Assembly (NCBI GenBank): GCA_017561825.1
Contig: JAFZBK010000035.1
Span: 1 to 42,384, forward strand
Reading direction: 5' to 3'
Source: Prevotella sp.
GTDB lineage: Bacteria > Bacteroidota > Bacteroidia > Bacteroidales > Bacteroidaceae
Length of the DNA: 42,384 bases
Shown here piece after piece: positions 2,303 through 24,754 of the stretch (positions are counted from its first letter, which is position 1; each line of letters opens with the position of its first letter). Position numbers and translations under genes: made by a program. A model generated the notes under the pieces. It saw only the letters and a list, made by a program, of their open reading frames with translations. It ran no database searches and was not told the DNA's origin.

Positions 2303-2455
2303 ATTCTATGTTTTTTCGGCAAAAGTACACTAAGGGTACGCCAAACCGTGGCAGAGGTATGAGAAATTATCATTGATCTGAATGATTGGCGCAATCATGT
2401 CCTTTGCCTCTTGTTTTCGTAGGTCGTTAATAATTCAATAGTTTTATCTGATTGC

Positions 2456-2630
2456 AAAGATACGATTAAACGAGCACAATACAAAGGAAAACGAACTTTT
2501 TCTTTATATTGTCGAGTGCAAGTATCTTCGGCGTTAGCCAATGATACGATTAAGTGAGCGAAAAACCAAATTAAATAGTTTTTATTTGTTTATCCGAACG
2601 TGAGTATTTTCGGCGTTAGCCAATGATACG
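2456..2630 (-). promoter_or_regulatory. Tandem promoter-hairpin repeats facing the WYL gene (array A)
   Basis: Three minus-strand copies of an ~83-bp unit have -7 positions at 2463-2456 (TATCTTTG), 2546-2539 and 2628-2621 (both TATCATTG, so decayed). The first has a -33 TTTG at 2486-2483 with exactly 19 bases between; the second has TTTG at 2570-2567 with 20. The second and third -7 boxes lie in hairpins with arms such as 2522-2532 and 2537-2547. Only the gene-proximal copy matches TTTG-N19-TAnnTTTG fully. Confidence 0.6.
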
Positions 2631-2740
2631 AATAAAAACAATACAATAGAATAATCAGGGATGGAATTTTGTGTTGAGGCAAAGAAAACTGAGGTGTACT
2701 AATTTCGGTTGACAAAATTTGGATTCACAAAACTGGCACA

Positions 2741-2858
2741 ACATACACGGATTTCGCTGGAAACGCCTTTATATACGAGGGAAATGTGTGTTTTCAACAT
2801 ACACGGAACATACACCAACGTTCACTATAGGCCCTATAACATACACGCAACATACACC
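2741..2858 (+). repeat. Five direct ACATACAC iterons
   Basis: ACATACAC begins at 2741, 2797, 2808, 2839 and 2850. The last four form two pairs with 11 bp between starts, and the pairs are 42 bp apart. Four copies in opposite orientation lie at 3031-3137. No credible coding sequence uses this stretch. Confidence 0.8.
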
Positions 2859-2969
2859 GCCATTAGACTACTTGCGCATAGAAACTATGGCACTTTCACA
2901 TAGAAAGTAGGCTGATTACCACCTCTAACTAGGCCACTTACTTATAGCAACTAGTCTTCTTACTCGATA

Positions 2970-3006
2970 TTCCCACGTTGGGAACTATTTATTCCCACGT
3001 TGGGAA
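2970..3006. repeat. Two identical 15-bp palindromes, 22 bp apart
   Basis: TTCCCACGTTGGGAA occurs at 2970-2984 and 2992-3006. Each has 6-bp arms around CGT, which suits a dimeric DNA-binding protein. The 22-bp period puts both on the same face of the helix. They sit roughly midway between the direct and inverted ACATACAC groups. Confidence 0.75.
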
Positions 3007-3030
3007 CAAAAACACGTTAGTGAATCTCGC

Positions 3031-3137
3031 GTGTATGTTAGTGCCCGTATAGTGTATGTTGGTGTACCCTTAGTGTATGTTGATTTTCATAAAAATCCCT
3101 TTATTTATCGTGCTTTTCGGCATTTTCCGTGTATGTT
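3031..3137 (-). repeat. Four inverted ACATACAC iterons
   Basis: GTGTATGTT begins at 3031, 3052, 3073 and 3129, with spacings of 21, 21 and 56 bp. The outermost copy is 56 bp from its neighbour, the same distance as between the outermost direct copies at 2741 and 2797, so the arrangement is roughly mirrored around the palindromes at 2970-3006. Confidence 0.8.
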
Positions 3138-3236
3138 CGCGCGTTTTTCATTAATTCTTTTCTCAGGGATTCTGCGTTTTAACCCACCACCCCACCTAAT
3201 ATGCATGAAACGCCCATAAACAAAGGGGGAAATGAC

Positions 3237-3420
3237 AGGTGGGTTGGATGCTTTCAACCCACCTTGAACCCACCTGTTTTGTCATTTTGTGTTAAGGATC
3301 TGATGAATTACTGATGAGTAATGAGGTGGATAGGAGGTGGGTTGGAGGTGGGTTAAACAGTATCAACCCACCTCGCTGAAACGCTTTACACATCGATGTT
3401 TCAAGCAGTTTAGGTGGGTT
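3237..3420. repeat. AGGTGGGTT iterons in mirrored triplets
   Basis: AGGTGGGTT is on the plus strand at 3237, 3335, 3346 and 3412, and on the minus strand at 3256, 3267 and 3365. Spacing of starts is 19 then 11 in the first triplet and 11 then 19 in the second, an exact mirror arrangement. A partial copy is at 3181. Facing copies could also form hairpins. Confidence 0.8.
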
Positions 3421-3477
3421 GATGGGTTAAAATGTAAATAACTTCAATTTTATAACCTTTCAATTTTTCAATTCTAC

Positions 3478-3574
3478 ATCGATTGCATATCCATGCATCG
3501 ATTTGAATATAAATGCAGGGTGCCTTGTTCGCTTGGAGCGGGAACGTCATTCTCGAGGAGTGAGAACGTCATTC
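3478..3574. repeat. Near-palindrome and 22-bp-spaced direct repeat
   Basis: ATCGATTGCAT at 3478-3488 faces ATGCATCGAT at 3493-3502 with one base inserted. GAACGTCATTC occurs at 3542-3552 and 3564-3574, again 22 bp apart. These are the last motifs before the right copy of the 18-bp inverted repeat. The remainder of the 2303-3639 gap shows no gene to me. Confidence 0.6.
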
Positions 3575-3641
3575 ACTCCCTCAAAGTGCCATAGTTTCTA
3601 AACGCCTTTTTTTAGCATGCATAAGTATGCAAAACGATCAT

Positions 3642-3959
3642 GGTTTCACCGAAGGTACTTTCGTTAACTTCGTTTTCCTCTGTCCCGACTCGGCCAAACG
3701 TGCTAGCACGATGGCTCTCGCTGCTCCATCGGTTCGGAAATGAAAAGAAAAACAAGTTTTCCTTTTGCATTTCTCTCACTTATTTGTACCTTTGGTTTCA
3801 CCGAAGGTACTTTCACTCGAAAATTAAAAGAAAAGTAAACTTTCCTTTTGAATTTTACTCGTTTATCCGTACTTTGGCTTCGCCGAAAGTACTTCCGCTC
3901 GACAAAACAAAGAAAAACATATTTTCCTTTGGTTTTGTGCTCGCTTAATCGTACCTTTG
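3642..3959 (+). promoter_or_regulatory. Tandem promoter-hairpin repeats facing the Gfo/Idh gene (array B)
   Basis: Three plus-strand promoters: TTTG 3764-3767 with TACCTTTG 3787-3794 (19 bases between), TTTG 3847-3850 with a -7 box at 3870 one base short (TACTTTG, 19 between), and TTTG 3928-3931 with TACCTTTG 3952-3959 (20 between). The period is 82-83 bp. The first two -7 boxes are in the left arm of hairpins (for example GTACCTTTGG at 3786 with CCGAAGGTAC at 3801-3810). A broken extra unit with only the hairpin arm is at 3642-3664. Confidence 0.75.
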
Positions 3960-3964
3960 TCCCC

Positions 3965-4967: not shown

Positions 4968-6122
4968 ATGCATAATAAGGTAAAATGGTTGTTGACGGGT
5001 TTGATGATGACGGTGATACAAGAGGTTACCGCCATGGATGACGTGGCCGATACGGTCATGTTCGTTTCTGAACCCTCTACCATGGAAGTGATGGCAAGCA
5101 AGGAGGATATTCCCCATAAGGTGGGAAACTTCTTTACTCGTTACTTCAAGGACTTCAACGAAATCGATACCACCTATATCGAACCGCAGCATTACAACTA
5201 TGCCGTGATGTTGCAGAACACCAATACCTACGAGACCTACCGCATCAGTAGTAAGTCGGGACAGTCGGTATCGTTTGCGCCTGAGATGACCTACCGCATC
5301 GGTCCGTATTTCGGATGGCGATGGATATTCCTCGGTTATACGTTTGATATCAGTCATTTCACCAGCGGACATAAGAAGAAGGAGTTCGACATCAGTCTGT
5401 ATAGTAACCTGATGAGTGTCGATCTCTACTACAGGAAAACGGGTAATGATTATAAGATCCGTAATATCGGACTGAATCATCAATATAAGACCATCCGTGA
5501 TGTGGATATCCCGTTCTCTGGATTGAATGTGGGAATCATCGGGTTCGACCTTTATTATATCTTTAACCACAAGAAGTTCTCGTATCCCGCGGCATTCAGT
5601 CAGAGTACTATTCAGCGACGCAGTTGCGGATCGGCACTGATGGGAATAGGCTATACGCGTCATAGCATCCATTTGGATTACGAGAAACTGCAAAATGCCA
5701 TGAACAACCTTCCCTCGGATATTGAGGCGAAATATGGTACCATTAAGCTTGATAGCGGTCTGATGTTCAATGAGGTAAAGTACAGGAACCTTGCGGTGTC
5801 AGGAGGTTATGCCTATAACTGGGTGTTCGCCCGCAACTGGCTGGCAGCCGCCAGTCTGTCGTTATCACTGGGCTATAAGCAGTCGGTGGGTGATCTGTGG
5901 CAATCTGGTAAGAACAGTATCCGTGATTTCTCGTTCAACACCATCTCCTTCGATGGTACAGGTCGCTTTGGCATCGTGTGGAACAACACACACTGGTTTG
6001 CAGGGATGAGTGCCATCATACATAGTTACAATTACCGCAAGACGCAGTTCTCTACGAACAATATTTTCGGTAGTCTGAACTTCTATGTGGGTCTGAACTT
6101 CAAGAGGAAGAGGGGACACTAA
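4968..6122 (+). CDS. DUF4421-type outer-membrane-like protein
   Basis: A 384-residue protein. The start at 4968 (MHNKVKWLLTGLMM) yields a signal peptide ending near residue 23. The rest has alternating aromatic/polar strands, for example IGPYFGWRWIFLGYTFDI and YRKTGNDYKIRNIG, as in the Bacteroidota family DUF4421, which I recognise by memory rather than by search. The pattern and terminal strand LNFYVGLNFKRKRG suggest a membrane beta barrel or an associated protein. It is the second gene of an apparent four-gene run (oxidoreductase, DUF4421, DUF1460, small barrel) that may have an envelope role. The function is unknown. Confidence 0.65.
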   Translation: MHNKVKWLLTGLMMTVIQEVTAMDDVADTVMFVSEPSTMEVMASKEDIPHKVGNFFTRYFKDFNEIDTTYIEPQHYNYAVMLQNTNTYETYRISSKSGQSVSFAPEMTYRIGPYFGWRWIFLGYTFDISHFTSGHKKKEFDISLYSNLMSVDLYYRKTGNDYKIRNIGLNHQYKTIRDVDIPFSGLNVGIIGFDLYYIFNHKKFSYPAAFSQSTIQRRSCGSALMGIGYTRHSIHLDYEKLQNAMNNLPSDIEAKYGTIKLDSGLMFNEVKYRNLAVSGGYAYNWVFARNWLAAASLSLSLGYKQSVGDLWQSGKNSIRDFSFNTISFDGTGRFGIVWNNTHWFAGMSAIIHSYNYRKTQFSTNNIFGSLNFYVGLNFKRKRGH

Positions 6123-20698: not shown

Positions 20699-21465
20699 AC
20701 CAGACGAAAGAGATCATGAAGCAGCATCGTATCTGCGTGATTGTGCCGACGTACAATAACGCAACGACAGTCGTGAGTGTCGTCGAGAAGATTCTGCTCA
20801 TGACCGATGATGTTATCGTGGTTATCGATGGTTGTACGGATGATACACGGGAACGACTGGATGAAGCTCAGGTGAATGTGGTGCGTGTTGACTATCCTGA
20901 GAATCGTGGAAAAGGACACGCGCTGGTGGCAGGCTTCAAGAAGGCTTTGGAGATGAAGTATGACTATGCCATCACCATGGATGCTGACGGACAGCATAAG
21001 CCAGAGGATATCCCGGTTTTTGTGGAAACCCTACAGCAACATCCCGGTTCCCTGATTATCGGGGCACGCAACCTCCATCAGGAGAACATGCCACAAGGGA
21101 ATACCTTTGCCAACAAGTTCTCTAATTTCTGGTTCAAGATACAGACGGGTATTGCCTTGCAGGATACGCAGACGGGCTATCGTCTCTATCCGTTGCATCG
21201 ATTGTCTGGCCTGCGATGGATCACCTCACGCTATGAGGCTGAGCTGGAACTGCTCGTCTTTTCCGCTTGGGCGAATATCCCGATCCATTCGATTTCTGTT
21301 CATGTGTATTATCCTCCGAAGGGAGAACGCGTGAGTCATTTCCGTCCCTTTGCCGACTTCGCCCGTATCAGTATTCTGAATACGGTTCTTTGTTTCCTGG
21401 CCGTTTTTTATGGCTGGCCAAGACGAATCATTCATCAACTACTTCATCATGGTCAGGTTCTTTGA
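20695..21465 (+). CDS. Family 2 glycosyltransferase
   Basis: A 256-residue GT-A enzyme. The nucleotide-sugar site starts CVIVPTYNNATT, with VVIDGCTDDT and the metal-binding DADGQH. The C-terminus has a hydrophobic segment (SILNTVLCFLAVFYGWP) that would hold it at the inner membrane, as in dolichyl-phosphate-mannose-synthase-like enzymes. A sugar or sugar-phosphate is probably added to the lipid carrier or the pigment head. It overlaps the MMPL gene by 17 bp. Confidence 0.85.
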   Translation: MNQTKEIMKQHRICVIVPTYNNATTVVSVVEKILLMTDDVIVVIDGCTDDTRERLDEAQVNVVRVDYPENRGKGHALVAGFKKALEMKYDYAITMDADGQHKPEDIPVFVETLQQHPGSLIIGARNLHQENMPQGNTFANKFSNFWFKIQTGIALQDTQTGYRLYPLHRLSGLRWITSRYEAELELLVFSAWANIPIHSISVHVYYPPKGERVSHFRPFADFARISILNTVLCFLAVFYGWPRRIIHQLLHHGQVL

Positions 21466-24400
21466 GACGATATACGATTACCTGTCGGGGAAGCGTTGGC
21501 TTGTAACGGTCTTCCTCCTTCTATTCGTCGTGGGATGCGCCGTCCTTTCCCTTCGTATGCATCATGAAGAGGACATCGCGAAGTTCCTGCCGCAGAATGA
21601 GCAGAATGAGAAATATGCAGAAATCTACCAACGACTGACAAGACAGGATCAGATTGTTGTCGTTTTTTCATCAAGAGATACGGTTGATGTAGTGCCTGCC
21701 GATACGATAGGAGAGGCAATGGATTACTTCGGGGAAACTCTTCAGACGTTTGATAGTCTGCAGGTTATCAAGGATATGCAGATCAGAACGGATGAGTCGC
21801 AGATGCTGGAAGTGATGGATTTCATCGGTCAGAACGCCCCGTATTTTCTGCAGGAAGACGACTACCGAAGGATGGATTCCCTCTTACAGCAGTCGGACTA
21901 CATAGCGGAGCAAATGGCGGAGAACAAACAACTGCTGAACCTCCCTGCAGCTGGAGGCAGGATGGAAGGTATGCGACAGGATCCGCTCCGTCTTTTCTCA
22001 CCTTTATTAAGTAGGATGCAGCAGTTCCGGATGACCAGTTCGTTTGATGTCATCGACGGCTGTGTCTTCACCAACGACGGACGGAGCGCACTGGCCTTCC
22101 TTTCTTCTCCCTACGGCATGAGCGAGTCGGCACAGAATGCCGCTTTGCAGTCGATGCTCGACAGTGTGATGCAACGTACGGAACAGGAATATCCTTCCTT
22201 GAAGGTCTCTGCCATCGGTGCCCCATTGGTGGCAGCAGGGAATGCACGACAGATCAAGAAGGACAGTGTGCTGGCGGTATCGTTGGCTGTGGTCCTGATC
22301 TTGTTGCTGTTGGCTTTCCATTACAGACGACTGTCCGACCTGTGGTGGTTGGGTTGTTCCTTGGCATTTGGATGGCTCTTCGCGATGGCTGGGATGTCAC
22401 TTTTCCGCGACAGTGTATCCGTCATTGTATTAGGAATCGGTTCCGTGATCATCGGTATCGCGGTGAACTATCCGTTGCATTTCCTCGATCATCTCAGGGA
22501 AACGGCTGATACCCGACAGACACTTCGTGACATGGTGCCCCCGCTGCTGATAGGAAATATAACAACGGTGAGTGCTTTCCTGTGTCTGGTGTGGCTCGAT
22601 GCTGCAGCCATGCGCGACTTAGGTTGGTTTGGTTCCCTGATGCTCATAGGTACCATCTTGTTCGTATTGGTGTTCCTGCCCTTGTATGTAAGCAGGAAAA
22701 AGCCAGTCCGAAGCCTTCGGACTGAGAGTCCGCAAGCTTCGGACTGTGAGTCCGCACCGTTCGGACTGGGAGTTCGCACCAAGCGGACTACACTCCGCGC
22801 ACTCATCATCCTACTGATAACCGTCGTGTTGGGTTTCTTTAGTACGAAGACTTCCTTTGATTCCGATCTGCGGAACATCAATTACATGACTGACCAGCAA
22901 CAGGAGGATATGCAGTTGCTCTCTGCCGTAACCCGTGAAGCACCTGTCTATGTGGTGGCAGAAGGGAAGACGCTGGATGAGGCATTGAAGGAGAATGAGA
23001 CAACGGTCCTGCCGAAGATTCAAAGGATGCAGCAGGAAGGGAGTATCAAGAGTGTGAGTGGAACAGGATATTTCCTGCCGACGGAAGATGTTCAGGAAGA
23101 GCGGATCAGCAGGTGGAATCAGTTCTGGTCACAGCATGCCAAGACCGTTTCTGCGGAACTGAAGCGCCAGTGTGCCCTGCAAGGTTTCAACGAGCAGGCC
23201 TTCGCTCCGTTCTTCGAGATGATTCAAACGACGTATGAGCCGCAGTCATCATCCTATTTCGATCCCATCATCTCCCTGCTGAACGATACCTATATCATGA
23301 ATGATGAGACGACAGGGAAGGTGCAAGTAGTGAGCTACATCCAGACAGATGATGAGCAGACCGTGAAGAAGGTCGTTAACGACGCCCGTTCTGCCTACTC
23401 CTTCGCGTTCAGTCAGCAGGATATTGGTAACCAACTGGTACAGGTGCTGTCAGACAGCTTCAACTACATCGGCTTCGTTTGCGGATTCGTGGTGTTCTTC
23501 TTCCTGTGGATTTCCTTCGGTAGCATCGAACTCTCACTGATGTCGTTCCTGCCCTTGGCGGTGGGCTGGGTGTGGATCTTAGGATTGATGCACCTGCTGG
23601 GTATTCAGTTCAATATCGTGAATGTTATTCTTGCTACGTTTATCTTCGGACAAGGTGACGACTATACCATATTCATTACCGAAGGATTATTATATGAATA
23701 TACAACGGGGAAGAAACGACTGGCCTCCTACAAGCGGAGCGTAGCGCTATCTGCCATCCTCATGTTCATCGGTATCGGTACGCTGATCTTTGCCAAACAC
23801 CCTGCTTTGCGGTCGTTGGCCGAGATAACCATCATCGGTATGTTTACCGTGGTACTGATGGCTTACTACCTGCCACCGATGGTGTTCAGGTGGCTCACCA
23901 GAGGGAAACAGGCTCCTGAAGTCTCAACTCTGACATCTAAAGTCATCACCCAACCATTACCCATCACGTTGGGACGTTTCATGCGTTCCCTGTTCTCCAT
24001 CGTCTTCTTCCTGCTGATGATGTATCTGTTCATGCTTCCGTTCACGTGGTTGTATTTCCATATCGGTAAGAACACGGAAGAGAAGAAGCTGAAATATCAT
24101 CGACTCTTACAGAAGGTGTCCAACTTTGTCATCCATCGTGTGCCGGGAGTGAAGTTCTACATGGAGAATCGGGTAGGCGAGACCTTCGAAAAACCTGCCG
24201 TGGTGATCTGTAATCATCAGTCACACCTTGACCTGATGTGCTTGATGATGCTCACGCCGAGGATCGTTTTCCTTACAAACGACTGGGTTTGGCATAATCC
24301 GTTCTATGGCTTGGTGATCCATCAGGCGGAGTTCTATCCCGTGAGTGACGGCATTGAGGCGCATGTGGATCAATTGCGTTCGTTGTATGAACGGGGCTAT

Positions 24401-24754
24401 TCCATTGCGGTGTTCCCAGAGGGTACGCGCTCTGTCGATTGCTCCATCCAACGTTTCCATAAGGGTGCCTTCTATCTGGCCGAACAGTTGCAGGCGGATA
24501 TCCTGCCGATTGTTCTGCACGGGGCAGGACATGTATTGCCCAAGAAGGACTTCATGCTCCGTGAGGGGATGATTGATATGGAAGTGTTGGAGCGCATCCG
24601 ACTGGATGATCCGCGCTTCAGCAGTGATCTGCTGACTCGTACCAAGCAGATGCGGGCGTATTTCAAAGAGCATTATGCCGCGATGTGTGAGCGGATAGAG
24701 ACTGAGGATTACTGGAAATCGTACCAACGATATATAGAAAAGTACAAGATCTGA
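21449..24754 (+). CDS. MMPL/RND-type exporter fused to a PlsC-like acyltransferase
   Basis: A protein of about 1101 residues from ATG 21449. Residues 1-800 are an RND/MMPL exporter: TM1 (WLVTVFLLLFVVGCAVLSL), a periplasmic loop, a cluster of helices from 270, a second loop and a second helix cluster containing FGQGDDYTIFITEG. After another helix pair, residues ~915-1101 form a PlsC acyltransferase with H923-QSHL-D928 (NHQSHLDL), FPEGTRS and PIVLHGAGHV. It may acylate its own cargo or hand over lipid at the inner membrane; proteobacterial clusters encode exporter and acyltransferase separately. The cytoplasmic loop near residues 423-450 is encoded by a non-coding-type repeat. Confidence 0.85.
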   Translation: MVRFFETIYDYLSGKRWLVTVFLLLFVVGCAVLSLRMHHEEDIAKFLPQNEQNEKYAEIYQRLTRQDQIVVVFSSRDTVDVVPADTIGEAMDYFGETLQTFDSLQVIKDMQIRTDESQMLEVMDFIGQNAPYFLQEDDYRRMDSLLQQSDYIAEQMAENKQLLNLPAAGGRMEGMRQDPLRLFSPLLSRMQQFRMTSSFDVIDGCVFTNDGRSALAFLSSPYGMSESAQNAALQSMLDSVMQRTEQEYPSLKVSAIGAPLVAAGNARQIKKDSVLAVSLAVVLILLLLAFHYRRLSDLWWLGCSLAFGWLFAMAGMSLFRDSVSVIVLGIGSVIIGIAVNYPLHFLDHLRETADTRQTLRDMVPPLLIGNITTVSAFLCLVWLDAAAMRDLGWFGSLMLIGTILFVLVFLPLYVSRKKPVRSLRTESPQASDCESAPFGLGVRTKRTTLRALIILLITVVLGFFSTKTSFDSDLRNINYMTDQQQEDMQLLSAVTREAPVYVVAEGKTLDEALKENETTVLPKIQRMQQEGSIKSVSGTGYFLPTEDVQEERISRWNQFWSQHAKTVSAELKRQCALQGFNEQAFAPFFEMIQTTYEPQSSSYFDPIISLLNDTYIMNDETTGKVQVVSYIQTDDEQTVKKVVNDARSAYSFAFSQQDIGNQLVQVLSDSFNYIGFVCGFVVFFFLWISFGSIELSLMSFLPLAVGWVWILGLMHLLGIQFNIVNVILATFIFGQGDDYTIFITEGLLYEYTTGKKRLASYKRSVALSAILMFIGIGTLIFAKHPALRSLAEITIIGMFTVVLMAYYLPPMVFRWLTRGKQAPEVSTLTSKVITQPLPITLGRFMRSLFSIVFFLLMMYLFMLPFTWLYFHIGKNTEEKKLKYHRLLQKVSNFVIHRVPGVKFYMENRVGETFEKPAVVICNHQSHLDLMCLMMLTPRIVFLTNDWVWHNPFYGLVIHQAEFYPVSDGIEAHVDQLRSLYERGYSIAVFPEGTRSVDCSIQRFHKGAFYLAEQLQADILPIVLHGAGHVLPKKDFMLREGMIDMEVLERIRLDDPRFSSDLLTRTKQMRAYFKEHYAAMCERIETEDYWKSYQRYIEKYKI
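22716..22803 (+). repeat. 22-bp REP-like repeat inside the MMPL coding region
   Basis: Units beginning TTCGGACTG start at 22716, 22738 and 22760, with a degenerate fourth at 22782; the period is 22 bp. Each contains a small palindrome of GGACT and AGTCC arms around three bases. Since 22 is not a multiple of 3, successive copies are translated in different frames, giving an unrelated Ser/Arg-rich loop after VSRKKPVRS. Confidence 0.8.

Follow-up and report, generated by a model that had tools for sequence, protein, structure and literature searches.

The window, which is the whole stretch of 42,384 nucleotides of the Prevotella sp. contig JAFZBK010000035.1 that was analysed, contains a region crowded with repeated motifs in the gap between two divergent genes, one for a WYL-domain regulator and the other for a Gfo/Idh/MocA oxidoreductase. 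The features of this region are listed in Table 1. The region is gene-free as originally predicted: no open reading frame (ORF) of at least 80 aa is present between 2303 and 3639. A 102-aa ORF at 3640-3948 on the right flank is dropped by the codon-usage caller. ACATACAC is found in five direct copies, which start at 2741, 2797, 2808, 2839 and 2850, and in four inverted copies, which start at 3031, 3052, 3073 and 3129. It is found 11 times in the whole window, where 1.38 copies are expected. AGGTGGGTT is found seven times within 3237-3412 with spacings of 19/11 and 11/19, and eight times in the whole window (0.21 expected). TTCCCACGTTGGGAA (at 2970 and 2992) and GAACGTCATTC (at 3542 and 3564) are each found twice, 22 bp apart, where 0 and 0.04 copies are expected, respectively. 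None of 100 shuffles reaches the observed count for any of these motifs. The motifs are thus positioned and numbered as first noted, and all of them occur far above chance.

Table 1. Repeats of the mosaic region, the neighbouring genes, and an array inside a gene elsewhere in the window
Feature	Position	Strand	Remarks
WYL-domain gene (regulator)	1367-2302	minus	left neighbour
Two repeats, 82 bp apart, outer left flank	2455-2640		inverted relative to right flank; 2455-2533 pairs with 3881-3959 (80%)
a element, 419 bp, AAAAC (type-1 end) to GTTTT (type-2 end)	2729-3147		alignment of 46 half-arrays
Type-1 arm of a	2741-2857	plus	sites start at 2741, 2797, 2808, 2818 (degenerate, ACGTTCAC), 2839, 2850
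e units, CATAGAAACTA type	2870-2953	plus	start at 2870, 2892, 2936 (22 and 44 bp apart); found by repeat search; e units also at other loci of this genome
b units, TTCCCA-N3-TGGGAA, two copies 22 bp apart	2968-3007	plus	similar arrays in other genomes of the genus
Type-2 arm of a	3020-3136	minus	minus-strand sites start at 3136, 3080, 3069 (degenerate), 3059, 3038, 3027 (degenerate)
c element, 256 bp	3177-3432		35-bp terminal inverted repeats (86%); seven AGGTGGGTT, mirrored
d units with GAACGTCATTC, two copies 22 bp apart	3528-3574	plus	
Lone inverted e-like unit	3583-3605	minus	91% complementary to 2874-2896
Three repeats, 83 and 82 bp apart	3734-3962		beside the start of the oxidoreductase gene
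Gfo/Idh/MocA oxidoreductase gene	ORF open from 3848, ATG 3965	plus	right neighbour
Four 22-bp units, AGTCCG-N7-CGGACT type, in frame	22705-22792	plus	inside the MMPL-family ORF 21410-24754, outside the mosaic region

The original prediction missed the 22-bp e family and the inverted 82-bp repeats of the two flanks. The arrays e and b are located inside the a element between its arms, and the c element and the 22-bp pair d come after it. The right-hand set of 82-bp repeats ends just before the oxidoreductase gene, in a TAnnTTTG-like box. The flanking 82-bp repeats may be duplicated promoters, and recombination between the inverted sets could invert the mosaic. The statement that all of the motifs are phased by 11 or 21-22 bp is overstated, because distances of 56, 31, 19, 47 and 68 bp are also present. 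The spacings of 56/11/31/11 and 21/21/56, which were first described for ACATACAC, are explained by three degenerate sites of this motif.

Both arms of the a element face inward, and each of them consists of six ACATACAC-type sites at offsets of 0/56/67/77/98/109. These offsets are recovered from the 46 aligned half-arrays of this and related genomes. Three of the twelve sites in the window are degenerate, such that the type-1 arm contains five exact sites and one degenerate site, and the type-2 arm contains four and two. Conservation of the half-arrays is 1.84 bits in the site columns, 1.11 bits in the spacers and 0.47 bits outside, although the value for the sites is raised by the selection of arms with at least three exact sites. 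This result supports better conservation of the sites than of the spacers in the ACATACAC arms, as would be expected for protein-bound arrays. The outermost well conserved stretch is an AAAA run located 9 to 12 bp beyond site 1, and the neighbouring C (−8) shows weak conservation. The a element is therefore placed at 2729-3147, with this run as its putative outer edge.

The type-1 arm is paired with a non-type-1 arm in 18 of the 19 two-armed copies, where type 2 means nothing more than an arm that fails the type-1 test, and where some copies are orthologous and so not independent. The far spacers of the paired arms show 428 mismatches, as compared with 322 in permuted pairs (P 0.0002). These two results indicate that the a element has two unlike ends. 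The inner spacers of the paired arms agree more than those of permuted pairs (P 0.02 for the 13 copies outside this genome and P 0.10 for all 19 copies), which hints at conversion between the arms or at a hairpin function. The core of the a element recurs as a unit, with unlike arms and with six sites at fixed offsets. The distance from the first to the last exact site is 469 bp or less in the listed copies, which leaves no room for a transposase gene inside them. Six of the listed copies are overlapped by ORFs of 82-108 aa, and a 419-aa ORF starts inside one arm (L084).

The stretch is a mosaic of several dispersed repeat families, not a one-off control site. This genome contains 90 matches to the region, whole or in pieces. 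A search for the motifs elsewhere in the genome, as proposed with the original prediction, finds that the families recur at other loci, in combinations such as b alone, e with b and c, c alone, and c beside a. More copies of the c element are present in L009, L014 and L015, and parts of it in L016 and L024. L042 contains four copies of AACGTCATT, which is related to d, 22 bp apart. At least four ACATACAC sites are present at ten loci of this genome, the window included, several of which are at contig ends, and more copies are present in relatives. This copy number argues against the proposal that the region is an origin, a centromere or partition site or a single recombination locus. The contigs C43, C24, C54 and C62 of G000 (L010, L012, L016 and L019) end in or near a elements, probably because the repeats break assemblies.

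A pattern scan of genome contigs gives 24 stretches, 22 of which come from four other assemblies with Prevotella or Bacteroidetes in the title (nine in RUG047, 11 in RGIG9694 from yak omasum, and one each in Tb.RUG.501 and RUG11690). One further stretch, in Bacteroidales RUG152, has a different arrangement, and a single Actinotignum stretch is taken for chance. When 299 genomes of the genus are sampled and two candidates are scored per genome, 61 genomes match the region. Both arms are matched in three of them (this genome, G195 and G110). Weak matches within the type-2 arm are found in G018, G167, G183 and G277, suggesting that divergent a-like elements may be more widespread. The other matching genomes contain b units, among the matches listed. 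The proposed search of plasmids gives no match to the motifs, and neither phages nor viral contigs (one pattern scan) contain a match to the element. An autonomous parent is not detected in one pattern scan each of genome contigs and viral contigs, and no candidate transposase gene is seen linked to the arms.

The 32 clusters of a that were examined, orthologues counted separately, are located in 14 tandem, 9 divergent and 3 convergent gaps (26 placed), with six more at contig edges, as compared with 30 tandem, 17 divergent and 11 convergent gaps in the sampled intergenic control. The lack of a clear bias in orientation argues against a promoter or terminator role. Consensus scans of the region give one promoter-like site against a shuffle mean of 4.0, and two terminator-like sites, a b unit and the type-2 end, against a shuffle mean of 1.5 (sd 1.6). 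A promoter or terminator role is rejected on the orientation and on these counts.

For six of the ten a-type loci that were fetched from G315, a counterpart of the a type is present at the equivalent position in G316, and some are partial (L135, L137). Positions are shared by L133, L125 and the window, by L134 and L123, by L130 and L119, by L129 and L120, and by L137 and L127. Copies at the same place in two genomes indicate inheritance, not movement. Absence of the arrangement in close relatives, which had been named as a finding against the original prediction, is observed in part: two relatives contain an a element at the locus of the window, but with the order of the arms reversed and without c and d. 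No homologue of the left gene of the window is found beside this element in the two relatives at E 1e-15. Many copies of a are preceded on the type-1 side by a 22-bp family, g (CATAGGTATTGGAGTCTAAAAC), which is absent in the window. A foldback-like GGCGGAGGAATTC and its inverse are present at about 3300-3500 of L026 and 2900-3100 of L031, where relatives contain an a element.

At one orthologous locus, the matched flanks are 1084 bp apart in G315, which contains the element there, and are separated by 57 and 30 bp in G316 and G000, respectively; G317 contains 462 bp of other sequence. At a second locus, the gap from flank to flank is 936 bp in G316 versus 221 bp in G317. The presence of an orthologous gap without the element in two other genomes, together with the separate occurrence of the motif families, argues against a unique control site. 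No target-site duplication is readable at the orthologous gaps with and without the element, because whole intergenic regions are exchanged between orthologous loci and the edges are blurred. The flanks of L124 are not matched in any of four genomes at E 1e-60; one flank of L128 is matched in G317, and parts of that flank in G316 and G000. In 11 orthologous locus pairs, alignment gaps represent recognisable g, b or a units in five of eight cases at 22 bp, two of two at 44 bp, one of three at 11 bp and two of four at 10 bp, and lengths of 6-8 bp are more frequent, at 16 of 54 gaps. From one genome to another, the loci vary in whether they are present, in how they are oriented and in the number of whole units.

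The helical phasing common to unrelated motifs, on which the original prediction was based, is real and extends beyond the window. A lag scan that is blind to the motifs was applied to 1,103,923 bp from 26 genomes of the genus for periods of 10-60. It gives 59 arrays, 21 of which have a period of exactly 22 bp and are spread over 13 of the 26 genomes. Four arrays have a period of 21 bp, two of 23 bp and none of 20 bp, and seven arrays each have periods of 41 and 44 bp. Eighteen of the 26 genomes are represented by one stretch each, all from contigs of the acyltransferase genes; the G000 stretch L162 is included as a fetched orthologue, and the window and L283/L284, which were fetched for b hits, are left out. 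The scan of six genomes from other families (522,209 bp, sampled unequally at 16 to 160 kb) gives 10 arrays, none with a period of 22 bp and one each with periods of 21, 23 and 44 bp. Base-shuffled sequence of the genus gives no arrays. At equal rates, the probability that none of the 21 arrays falls in the smaller sample is ~3e-4, and that of the per-genome counts (13 of 26 versus 0 of 6) is ~0.03, both calculated by hand. A looser analysis with TRF, in which the window is included and arrays based on 7 bp are dropped, gives 24 of 94 arrays at 22 bp in eight genomes of the genus versus one of 28 in other families. Before the 7-bp arrays are dropped, the G000 sample contains 11 TRF arrays of 20-23 bp. 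The unselected stretches of this genome contain one 22-bp array in the strict lag scan.

The 22-bp units are diverse in sequence. A perfect 7-bp dyad (shuffle p ≤0.05) is present in eight of the 21 arrays and in four of the 38 arrays with other periods, two of these four having a 44-bp period. Twenty of the 21 arrays are located outside open frames of at least 150 aa. These results show that, among the genomes of the genus that were sampled, tandem arrays have a period of 22 bp more often than any other period, with sequences that are unrelated and partly dyad-symmetric. One 22-bp family, TTGGGTATAGGCGAACGATCGT, is common to two genomes (L166, 9771-9833, and L118, about 5160-5220) and is once near an a element. 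The seven arrays with a 41-bp period are located in L179, L180, L246, L248 and L249 (G016 and G092). In the open-licence literature, where absence is not absence from print, no paper was found on 22-bp arrays in Prevotella or with a motif string of the region.

Arrays are also present inside genes. Membrane acyltransferases (PF01757) of three genomes contain an in-frame b array of 66 bp, which consists of three units and is located in one loop. This array, which is not part of the window region, shows an RPE-like trait, as it is an in-frame palindromic insert that is absent in homologues. The best lag in the loop is 22 bp in seven of 33 aligned rows (32 loci), which represent six loci or genomes, L096 (789-1874), L055/L205, L056, L206, L204 and L207, and the repeated sequences of L204 and L207 are other than b. 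The remaining 26 rows do not have 22 bp as the best lag; one row is truncated there and one has a 27-bp lag at similar strength. The MMPL-family gene of the window contains four in-frame units (Table 1), and its nearest relative (74% identical) has a 22-bp array of another sequence at the corresponding site. The comparison at this site covers the 17 of 30 fetched loci that were recovered, the window included, and 14 of these rows have no tandem repeat and one has a 36-bp lag.

The region is probably a mosaic of dispersed, non-coding, mobile-like repeats between divergent genes, in which the a element is a MITE-like passenger and the 22-bp arrays turn over by units. Like a MITE, the a element is small (~420 bp) and non-coding, and has many dispersed copies. 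The ends of Tn7, Mu and IS21 are distinct on the left and right, and each contains several phased, inward binding sites. The a element resembles them in its distinct multi-site ends, with unlike arms in 18 of 19 copies and six fixed offsets, but differs from them in that no transposase, autonomous element or target-site duplication is found for it. By analogy with these ends, the arms are putative binding arrays for a transposase that would be supplied in trans, and the a element would enclose and exchange minisatellite-like 22-bp arrays as a passenger. Slippage or unequal recombination may add whole units to the arrays or remove them, and a bound protein or enzyme that reads DNA in two-turn steps may keep the 22-bp period. 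A unit of two helical turns would suit a protein that reads both unit ends on one face of the DNA.

Porphyromonas gingivalis, the host of BrickBuilt, also belongs to the Bacteroidales. BrickBuilt is the nearest published relative found; it seems by analogy to work alike, but the a element is not a member of it. BrickBuilt is an intergenic MITE with 19 copies in one strain, in which tandem 23-nt units are located between a distinct leader and tail, no transposase remnant is described inside, and some locations are common to P. gulae (PMC4596501). Its leader and tail are described there as non-repetitive, with 12-nt IS5-like inverted ends of the GAGACC type, and tandem repeats of 41, 23 and 22 nt are mentioned for P. 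gingivalis W83 (PMC4596501). The likeness lies in intergenic, multi-copy elements in which short tandem units are enclosed by distinct ends. The 41- and 22-nt repeats may be compared with the lag scan of the genus, in which 22 bp ranks first and 41 bp is tied with 44 bp for second. The differences are that each arm of the a element is a six-site array with fixed offsets, that one element contains several unrelated unit families, that the unit is 22 bp instead of 23 nt, and that the ends are AAAA...TTTT, not of the GAGACC type. The Rickettsia palindromic elements are palindromic repeats in frame in protein genes (PMC3733652). The in-frame palindromic repeats in the acyltransferase and MMPL genes resemble them. 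The arrays differ from them in that they are tandem at 22 bp, are nearly all outside frames of at least 150 aa (20 of 21), and differ at the same gene loop between genomes.

The arms and the 22-bp arrays may instead be host sites for chromosome organisation or regulation, which bind proteins and are kept by selection, and which are not selfish. The two-turn period common to unrelated sequences, the better conservation of the sites than of the spacers, and the conservation of several loci between genomes are consistent with this explanation. It is nevertheless unlikely, because the clusters are not clearly biased to divergent or convergent gaps, copies are missing at orthologous loci, one and the same gene loop contains different repeated sequences in different genomes, and, in the 299 genomes, both arms are matched in three and the type-2 arm weakly in four more. 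The platform for cooperative proteins that was originally proposed thus keeps some ground, in that the phasing extends past the window and the site columns are the more conserved, but its forms as an origin, a centromere or a single recombination locus do not.

Alternatively, a and c may be transcribed foldbacks that act as RNA structures or as single-strand hairpins. The regions 2720-3145 and 3170-3440 are each predicted to fold strongly as a single long hairpin (-148.8 kcal/mol, z -9.95, and -119.6 kcal/mol, z -9.73, respectively), dyads are present in eight of the 21 22-bp arrays, and the inner spacers of the arms agree somewhat, as described above. In contrast, the far spacers match less than permuted pairs, so that compensatory pairing is not seen there, the orientation of the clusters is not clearly biased, and the four Rfam matches of the region (E up to 1) are all far under the gathering scores. 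This explanation is therefore improbable, and structured RNA is rejected as a candidate because the strong folds are accompanied neither by compensatory pairing of the far spacers nor by an Rfam match near the gathering score.

A REP/BIME system driven by a REP-associated tyrosine transposase (RAYT) is very improbable. REP/BIMEs are mosaics of palindromic units that are mostly extragenic and species-specific and form hybrid clusters, and BIMEs contain REPs in alternating orientation (PMC2817692). The region resembles them as a mosaic of short, partly palindromic, mostly extragenic units that differ between genomes, and the carrier genome G318 has six matches to Y1 transposases. However, the units of the region are tandem at 22 bp, and a Y1 match is absent in three of the five carrier genomes (G315, G316 and G317) and single and weak (24.2 bits) in G000. 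A RAYT is rejected as the driver for the three genomes that have no Y1 match.

A replication origin, a centromere-like site or a partition site, for which the iteron-like arrays at 11 and 21-22 bp, the change in the sign of the GC skew at ~4 kb and the divergence of the flanking genes may be cited, is the least probable explanation, because the repeats are multi-copy and dispersed without a plasmid match, are absent at an orthologous locus in other genomes, and are flanked by genes for a WYL regulator and an oxidoreductase, not by replication or partition genes. The GC-skew check proposed originally does give a sign change, from -0.068 and -0.025 in the first and second steps of 2 kb to +0.085 in the next. 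This change does not count against an origin, but it is also expected from a switch from minus-strand to plus-strand genes. An origin, a centromere or an ICE site is rejected on the copy number and the missing orthologous copy.

The mosaic of dispersed, mobile-like repeats is thus the preferred reading, and a wider one may be added to it tentatively. The 22-bp phased arrays may form a genus-wide system, in which a dedicated protein or copying enzyme would fix the period, while the sequence, which is often a dyad, would be free to vary from species to species, even within a single gene loop. In this case, the a element would be a family of modules with two protein-binding ends, between which such arrays are packaged. 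If the 22-bp ruler applies genus-wide, a factor measures two helical turns when repeats are built or kept in a common gut and rumen genus, and the arrays would mould the DNA between genes, insert peptides into membrane proteins and interrupt assemblies at contig ends. Arms and arrays alike would then be concrete DNA baits for finding the factor that sets the period.
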